Positions 16,100 through 29,941 of a stretch of 45,927 nt of DNA are shown one piece after another. This stretch comes from Acidobacteriota bacterium (GTDB lineage: Bacteria; Acidobacteriota; Terriglobia; Acidiferrales; UBA7541): assembly GCA_023481105.1 (NCBI GenBank), contig JAMCWK010000025.1, forward strand, positions 1 to 45,927, in the 5' to 3' direction. How positions within the stretch are numbered: position 1 is the stretch's first letter; the number at the start of each line of letters is the position of its first letter. The position numbers and the translations under genes are program-made. Below the pieces are notes generated by a model, which was given only the letters and a program-made list of their open reading frames with translations, did no database searches and was not told the origin of the DNA.

Positions 16100-16155
16100 A
16101 ACGATAAATGCTCAATTTTGAGGTACTTCCAAGGAGGTTGGTTACCGGTTACTGA

Positions 16156-16197
16156 GGCGAACAAAAATCGAAAAATAATGTTTGCTTTTTGTTCGCC
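16156..16197. promoter_or_regulatory. 12-bp inverted repeat over the putative recA promoter (candidate SOS operator)
   Basis: GGCGAACAAAAA (16156-16167) and TTTTTGTTCGCC (16186-16197) are perfect inverted copies 18 bases apart. The right arm falls between a possible -35 (TTGCTT, 16182-16187) and -10 (TACGAT, 16204-16209), where a repressor would block RNA polymerase. The arms contain GAAC/GTTC, the core of Gram-positive LexA boxes, but with much wider spacing. No T-run follows, so a terminator is unlikely. Confidence 0.55.
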
Positions 16198-16257
16198 TTC
16201 TGCTACGATGCCCTCAATTGACGGGGTGCAGCCAGCTTCCCCGAATAGGAGGGTACA

Positions 16258-17421
<1,164 letters not shown>

Positions 17422-29131: not shown

Positions 29132-29228
29132 TTCGTTTCTCTCTATGTCTCTGTGGCAAATTCCTCGGGCTGGCGCGAAGTCTACCACCGCCCTGTTACC
29201 TGACACTTGTCAGGCGCCAACTTCCCGC

Positions 29229-29258
29229 TTGACTTTTCGCCTTGTCTTCGCCTATCCT
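29229..29258 (+). promoter_or_regulatory. Sigma70-like promoter for lexA
   Basis: TTGACT (29229-29234), 18-bp spacer, TATCCT (29253-29258). The start would be near 29265, about 32 nt before the ATG. A palindrome CCTGACA-CT-TGTCAGG (29199-29214) lies 14 bases upstream of the -35; it belongs to a CTGACA-type repeat run, so an operator role is doubtful. Confidence 0.65.
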
Positions 29259-29296: not shown

Positions 29297-29941
29297 ATGG
29301 TTCTCACCAAGCGCCAGAAGCAAGTCCTCGATTTTCTGAAAACGTTTCTCGAAGAGAAGGGCTACTCGCCCTCCTTCGAAGAAATTGCCGAAGGGCTGAA
29401 GGACAAGCGCTTCGGCGGCAAGAAGCTCACTTCGCTGGCCACCGTGCATAAGCACATCGGCACGCTGGAGCGTAAAGGTTTTCTCCGCCGCGGCTACAAC
29501 CAGAGCCGCTCCATCGAAGTTACGCCGCTGCCCAAGCCCGGCCGCGAGCACATGATTGAGCGCGCCGTCGAGCTGCCGCTGGTCGGCCGCATCGCCGCCG
29601 GCCGCCCGCTGGAAGCGCTGGAAGATAAGCAGACGATTTCCCTCGGCGACTTCGTCCGTTCGCAAAACGTGTACGTGCTGCAAGTGAAGGGCGACTCCAT
29701 GCGCGACGACCACATCCTCGACGGCGACTATGTCGTGGTCGAGCAGTCGCAGGTAGCCAATGCCGGGGAAATTGTCGTCGCGCTCGTCGGCGGCGATGAA
29801 GCTACGCTGAAGCGTTTTTACCGCGAAGGCCCGGGCAAAGTCCGGCTCCAGCCCGCCAATTCCCAGATGGAGCCCATCGTCGTCCCCGCCGCCGACGTCA
29901 AGATTCAGGGCAAAGTCATCGGCGTTCTCCGCAAATACTGA
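29297..29941 (+). CDS. lexA: LexA repressor
   Basis: SOS repressor and self-cleaving protease activated by RecA filaments. I start at 29297 (MVLTKRQKQVLDFLK) with GGGAG seven bases upstream; the frame to 29207 runs through the promoter. The winged-helix domain (1-75) includes GYSPSFEEIAEGL and LATVHKHIGTLERKGFL. The cleavage site is Ala101-Gly102 in GRIAAGRP, and the Ser134 (GDSMRDD) and Lys172 (ATLKRFYREG) dyad is intact, 38 residues apart as in known LexA. The DNA-recognition helix is not of the E. coli type, so its operator is probably not the E. coli SOS box. recA is 12 kb away in the same window. Confidence 0.94.
   Translation: MVLTKRQKQVLDFLKTFLEEKGYSPSFEEIAEGLKDKRFGGKKLTSLATVHKHIGTLERKGFLRRGYNQSRSIEVTPLPKPGREHMIERAVELPLVGRIAAGRPLEALEDKQTISLGDFVRSQNVYVLQVKGDSMRDDHILDGDYVVVEQSQVANAGEIVVALVGGDEATLKRFYREGPGKVRLQPANSQMEPIVVPAADVKIQGKVIGVLRKY

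Follow-up and report, generated by a model that had tools for sequence, protein, structure and literature searches.

The window, by which we mean the whole stretch of 45,927 nucleotides analysed here, carries both recA and lexA (Table 1). The nearest named relatives of its RecA come from Terriglobia/Acidobacteria MAGs, and the window also encodes acidobact_VWFA proteins. The match of the long recA ORF to the RecA profile begins at 16363; in many relatives, an ATG stands at the site that corresponds to 16354. The extended −10-like sequence in the leader suggests that RecA starts at this ATG rather than at 16258. The sequence TGNTANNCT was present in the recA leader of 17 of the 33 family genomes, and TGGTAAACT may be a second promoter of recA that is not subject to LexA.

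The initial annotation had credited the LexA of the window with a cleavage site and a catalytic dyad, and the alignment agreed with this. The protein contains LexA and S24 domains, and its A-G site (RIAAG), Ser (GDSM) and Lys (TLKR) motifs were aligned; we take these to be the cleavage site and the two residues of the dyad, respectively.

Table 1. Features of the recA and lexA regions, with positions in the window.
Feature	Position	Strand	Remarks
13-bp perfect inverted repeat	16155..16198	none	From the strong halves of two LexA-type boxes; arms at 16155-16167 and 16186-16198
Inverted gene-distal box of the LexA type, minus-strand sequence TTCGATTTTTGTTCGCC	16156..16172	-	8 bp upstream of the proximal box
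Gene-proximal LexA-type box TTTGCTTTTTGTTCGCC	16181..16197	+	TTYGC-N6-TTCGC direct repeat, period 11; covers the −35 region
Putative −35 hexamer TTTGCT of recA promoter P1	16181..16186	+	Inside the right box; 17 bp to the −10; conserved
Putative −10 hexamer TACGAT of recA P1	16204..16209	+	Read from the sequence
recA	16258..17421	+	Long ORF; Pfam RecA 6e-138; likely true start ATG 16354
Possible second recA promoter, LexA-independent: extended −10 TGGTAAACT	16290..16298	+	Proposed on inference
LexA-type box TTCGCCTTGTCTTCGCC in the lexA promoter	29236..29252	+	Between −35 TTGACT (29229-29234) and −10 TATCCT (29253-29258)
lexA	29297..29941	+	TIGR00498 1.7e-55, single match in the genome; Pfam LexA_DNA_bind 1e-15, Peptidase_S24 4e-30

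The inverted repeat upstream of recA

The sequences AGGCGAACAAAAA and TTTTTGTTCGCCT are exact reverse complements, with arms of 13 bp separated by 18 bp. The repeat had initially been reported with 12-bp arms, which is one base short. When the arms were lengthened to 18 bp each around an 8-bp gap, they were 89% complementary. In 2000 rounds of dinucleotide shuffling of the 158 bp between the genes, a perfect pair of at least 13 bp was never obtained, and a pair of at least 12 bp was obtained once. In the whole window, the pair upstream of recA was the sole perfect 12-mer inverted repeat with a gap of 3–40 bp; the mean number expected from 100 shuffled windows was 0.34 per window. The exact pair GCGAACAAA...TTTGTTCGC occurred once in the 3.45-Mb genome. 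The single sequences GCGAACAAA and TTTGTTCGC occurred 55 times, versus 14 times in the reversed control, and formed just this one pair; they were therefore abandoned as a functional unit in favor of a direct repeat.

This direct repeat is a 17-bp box, TTYGCY-N5-TTCGCC, with an 11-bp period. The gene-proximal box and the inverted gene-distal box together make up the palindrome. The gene-distal box has one imperfect half, its upstream half-site, which reads TTCGA. With a position weight matrix built without the genome's own boxes, the top three matches in the window were the right box (30.8, with a maximum of 31.4), the lexA box (24.8), and the left box (22.8), followed by a match of 12.7. The Gram-positive form of the LexA box, GAAC-N4-GTTC, a palindrome with a 4-bp gap, did not occur in the window.

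The gene-proximal arm overlaps a putative sigma-70-like recA promoter, P1. The initial annotation had placed the right arm between the −35 and −10 hexamers, and this placement holds, with the last base of the −35 shared with the arm. The −35, the spacer, and the −10 are kept in relatives, with TTTGCT as the presumed −35 and, 17 bp on, a TANNNT-like −10. At the −10 positions fixed relative to the box, the first T was found in 26 and the A in 21 of the 33 relatives. P1 was not listed by a strict consensus promoter scan.

Conservation of the box and of the LexA recognition helix

We compared 37 genomes of the family (G000–G036, where G000 is the genome of the window), and a recA 5′ flank fit for use was available in 33 of them; recA was not matched in G001, G025, and G026, and was matched only in fragments in G033. 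The sequence TTTGCTTTTTNTTCGCC was found with at least 16 of 17 matches upstream of recA in all 33 genomes, and with 17 matches in 29 of them. The left arm lies outside this conserved block. In the congener G002, the right box is kept and the two arms are not conserved as a pair, so that conservation of the initially noted arms holds in part. In the recA upstream regions of G037–G060, outside the family, the recA form of the box was not matched well, with 13 of 17 positions at best. In genus g5 (L121, L122, L130, and L149), the recA box lies 356–530 bp before the RecA profile match, versus approximately 113–187 bp elsewhere in the family; the distance may reflect an extended leader or an additional small gene.

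Exact TTCGC-N6-TTCGCC was present in all 34 family lexA promoters examined (G007 and G021 gave no lexA match, and G031 gave a fragment only), usually flanked by a TTGAC-like −35 and a TANNNT −10. Because the lexA promoters give the same repeat as recA, the element is identified as a direct repeat whose period is 11 bp. The pattern TTYGC-N6-TTCGC was present in all family lexA and recA boxes, and the GC after TTC (or TTT) was invariant in 67 of 67. Position 3 of the box was T in 33 of 33 cases at recA and C in 34 of 34 at lexA, without exception, and the affinity may therefore differ between the two promoters. Promoter constraint could account in part for the T-rich stretch of the recA box. As a search pattern, bare TTYGC-N6-TTCGC was hardly enriched (49 matches, versus 39 for its reverse) and was rejected as too loose; just the fuller profile discriminates.

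Several individual features were observed at lexA. A near-perfect palindrome, CCTGACACTTGTCAGG, lies upstream of the lexA −35 at 29199-29214, and was not visible in the compared stretch of the lexA promoters of the congeners G001 and G002. The lexA promoter of G020 (L210, 1435-1462) has three consecutive TTCGCC half-sites with an 11-bp period. G001, in the genus of the window, has a second LexA with its own box (C116, L224). In the DNA-binding domain of the window's LexA, an insertion of eight residues (KDKRFGGK region) lies between helix 2 and helix 3 and is absent from the other LexAs aligned; a longer match length suggests that the LexAs of G001 and G002 share it.

To relate the box to its regulator, 51 LexA proteins were tabulated with their own promoters. 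Among LexAs with the recognition helix SLAT[VI]HKH, 44 of 45 had a box scoring at least 14.8 in their own promoter, whereas G043, with the helix SLATIHKH, had a weak site only (6.6). The box was also present in G045, whose helix is SVATVHKH, which gives 45 of 46 for S[LV]AT[VI]HKH. In contrast, none of the five LexAs with another helix (YPATVQDH, SAQAIQQH, and one unlike either; G044, G059, G048a, G056a, and G052) had the box in its own promoter. G048 and G056 encode both LexA types, and their box was found at the SLATVHKH paralogue only. Outside the training family, 17 of the 18 rows of the S[LV]ATVHKH type passed, and the association between helix and box is therefore not only circular. The LexAs of G010, G012, G017, G018, G023, G028, and G035 were left untranslated; their promoters have the box. 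The site varies with the DNA-recognition helix of LexA across the class, a clean co-variation of regulator and operator.

Predicted SOS targets

A profile, R1, was built from 57 distinct boxes of lexA and recA promoters, including the genome's own two, and was used to search the genome of the window (3,445,516 bases in 154 contigs, 85.2% complete). The top five matches were at a radical SAM gene of the Rv2578c/PA0069 type (C23, 21.6 bits), the DNA polymerase IV gene (C90, 20.9 bits), a DinB-fold gene (C63, 19.5 bits), recA (19.1 bits), and lexA (18.2 bits). Because R1 was trained on the lexA and recA boxes of the family, the last two match by construction. The first three, which are further DNA-damage genes with a box in this genome, lie outside the training set. 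Independent support comes from other genes, other families, and leave-own-out scores. The top five were followed by the divergent region between DEAD/DEAH-helicase and TPR genes (14.6 bits) and by dnaB (13.6 bits); the left arm at recA ranked tenth (12.3 bits, E 1.03). Weak matches on C128, C97, C68, C88, and C16 were assigned to no named gene. A box was also seen near a DUF4238 gene (C53).

In ten relatives, R1 gave 70 matches, which included recA and lexA boxes, and 30 loci other than recA and lexA were examined, several of them without a nameable gene. Of the 11 genomes searched with R1, 10 have a box next to a gene of the radical-SAM family, among them nine of the ten relatives (all but G002). 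The DNA polymerase IV box was found in G034 and G037, the DinB-fold box in G002, G017, and G034, the dnaB box in several relatives, and a box at a UdgX-type glycosylase gene in G003. In 90 loci (346,713 bases), all 62 matches scoring at least 15 lay in the 5′ flank of recA, lexA, or dnaB, with positions judged by eye. The initial annotation had raised the question of whether the motif recurs before other SOS genes, and similar boxes do precede such genes; a non-systematic look tied no box to dnaE2-imuB or uvrA.

Two further observations concern these loci. The radical-SAM gene of the Rv2578c/PA0069 family often has two tandem boxes approximately 30–36 bp apart (L274, L308, L306, L311, and L301). 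A 220-aa gene of G005, behind a strong box and with relatives in G017 and G016, was considered as ImuA; the likeness was judged by eye, no Pfam or NCBIfam match was obtained, and the name was not adopted.

In regards to dnaB, an inverted LexA-type box was located just 5′ of the start in 30 of the 31 family genomes examined (13 of 14, 16 of 16, and G000, at G000:C15:57587-57605; L173, L263; upstream regions L316–L365), the exception being G010. Within the same order, the box was also found in G037, G038, G039, G040, and G042. Among twelve genomes of other families, it was found in G058 only, approximately 200 bp upstream. The replicative helicase gene is a very unusual predicted SOS target, and LexA control of dnaB was not the subject of the SOS-regulon and replicative-helicase literature found, as judged by titles and the beginnings of abstracts.

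Paired boxes at recA and the probable LexA operator

In five of the 33 recA promoters, namely those of G000 and of all four members of genus g5 in the set, a second, divergent box scoring above 10 lay no more than 60 bp from the recA box. Among 89 family genomes, the pair pattern occurred in 21, at one site each, and in none of the reversed-pattern controls; the carriers were the genome of the window and 20 of the 36 genus-g5 genomes. Of these 21, we tied the pair to recA itself in G000, G006, and G034 only. The box-to-box spacing was 7–9 bp in the four pairs with a left box scoring above 15, and 17 bp in G028. In the genus of the window, the pair is missing from G002, and G001 yielded no match for recA. 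As far as the sequences indicate, the paired boxes are a recurring but lineage-specific architecture. The second box is dispensable, because it is absent from G002 and from 28 of the 33 family recA promoters, which have the gene-proximal box only. It would be expected to deepen repression or to make it cooperative. Promoters with multiple boxes are described as common in the SOS network (PMC8565304).

The inverted repeat is, with high probability, a double LexA operator on the recA promoter, built from a 17-bp direct-repeat LexA box that appears to serve a small SOS regulon in this acidobacterial lineage. The LexA-type operator that had initially been proposed over the recA promoter is thus very probably present, whereas its description as a new palindrome with an 18-bp gap did not stand, since each arm is the strong half of a separate box. 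It is improbable that an 18-bp-spaced palindrome forms a new operator, of the LexA type or of another regulator, in which GAAC/GTTC half-sites are bridged by one large complex. The perfect 13-bp arms would fit such an operator, as would the similar pairs that a relaxed pattern detected in 20 genus-g5 genomes with nearly constant spacing. However, the genome has the exact pair only once, the left box is missing from most family recA promoters, and lexA, the DNA polymerase IV gene, the DinB-fold gene, dnaB, and others carry the 17-bp box without the palindrome.

Less probable still is the view that the conserved right arm is merely a strong promoter with no repressor site. The right arm does overlap the −35 and the spacer of recA; at lexA, however, the repeat sits between the TTGAC −35 and the −10, inverted copies occur at dnaB, the DinB-fold gene, and others, and the repeat is lacking where LexA has another helix. 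Least probable is an RNA hairpin serving as a terminator of the upstream gene or as a recA attenuator: the RNA fold of the stretch is stable (−20.9 kcal/mol, z −5.9), but there is no T-run, no terminator was found, the right arm is conserved whereas the left is not, and P1 would not transcribe the repeat because the repeat lies upstream of the −10.

The computation establishes that the boxes exist, that they are conserved, and that they co-occur with the recognition helix of LexA; it also establishes the geometry of the promoters. On the double LexA operator, binding, repression, and induction would proceed as follows. LexA would recognize TTYGCY-N5-TTCGCC through half-sites 11 bp apart, approximately one helical turn. 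The first box would overlap the −35 and spacer of recA P1, and the inverted second box, 8 bp upstream, would lie over the likely UP-element region. LexA dimers on the boxes would block RNA polymerase, and upon DNA damage, RecA-stimulated self-cleavage of LexA would lift the block. The box over the lexA promoter would provide autoregulation, and the radical-SAM gene, dinB (DNA polymerase IV), the DinB-fold gene, and dnaB would make up the rest of the small SOS regulon. We regard the chances as even for a further, two-part proposal: LexA would control dnaB as a core SOS target, holding down and then boosting the fork helicase, and recA in genus g5 and the genome of the window would use the divergent direct-repeat pair, with its fixed geometry (approximately 24–26 bp from center to center), as one composite and possibly cooperative operator.

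The LexA box of Acidobacterium capsulatum, which belongs to the same phylum, is said to have been described by Mazon et al. in 2006, reportedly as GTTC-N7-GTTC. The boxes reported here are like GTTC-N7-GTTC in their 11-bp period, in the TTC core of each half, and in their position over the lexA and recA promoters; the two recA boxes match it at 7 of 8 positions each, and the lexA box at 6 of 8. In contrast to it, they keep GC(C) and have no conserved leading G, so that their halves are not GTTC half-sites, and the recA boxes are placed back to back. Because G precedes TTC in just 5 and 8 of the 34 lexA halves, respectively (6 and 12 of 33 at recA), the boxes are a variant and not the exact GTTC-N7-GTTC box. 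The extended form was absent from the titles and abstract beginnings of the LexA literature found for Acidobacteria names. It defines a class-wide LexA box for abundant and hardly tractable soil bacteria, and illustrates that a striking palindrome can consist of two direct-repeat sites.

LexA boxes vary widely, and 17 have been reported (PMC8565304). The direct repeat GTTC-N7-GTTC is the LexA box of Alphaproteobacteria (PMC3323433, PMC8565304), and comparison of the sequences gives good support to an operator of this direct-repeat kind here rather than a new spaced palindrome. The Gram-positive box, GAAC-N4-GTTC, is bound by LexA as the SOS repressor (PMC3323433); it shares the half-site letters TTCG/CGAA with the boxes described here, and differs from them in its palindromic form with the short gap. 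In Balneolaeota, the LexA operator is the direct repeat TTACACATATTTTWTACATA, located before lexA, recA, polymerase genes, and a radical-SAM gene (PMC7739468). The boxes described here resemble it as a direct-repeat operator upstream of lexA, recA, polymerase, and radical-SAM genes, and differ from it in the letters of the half-sites and in the phylum.
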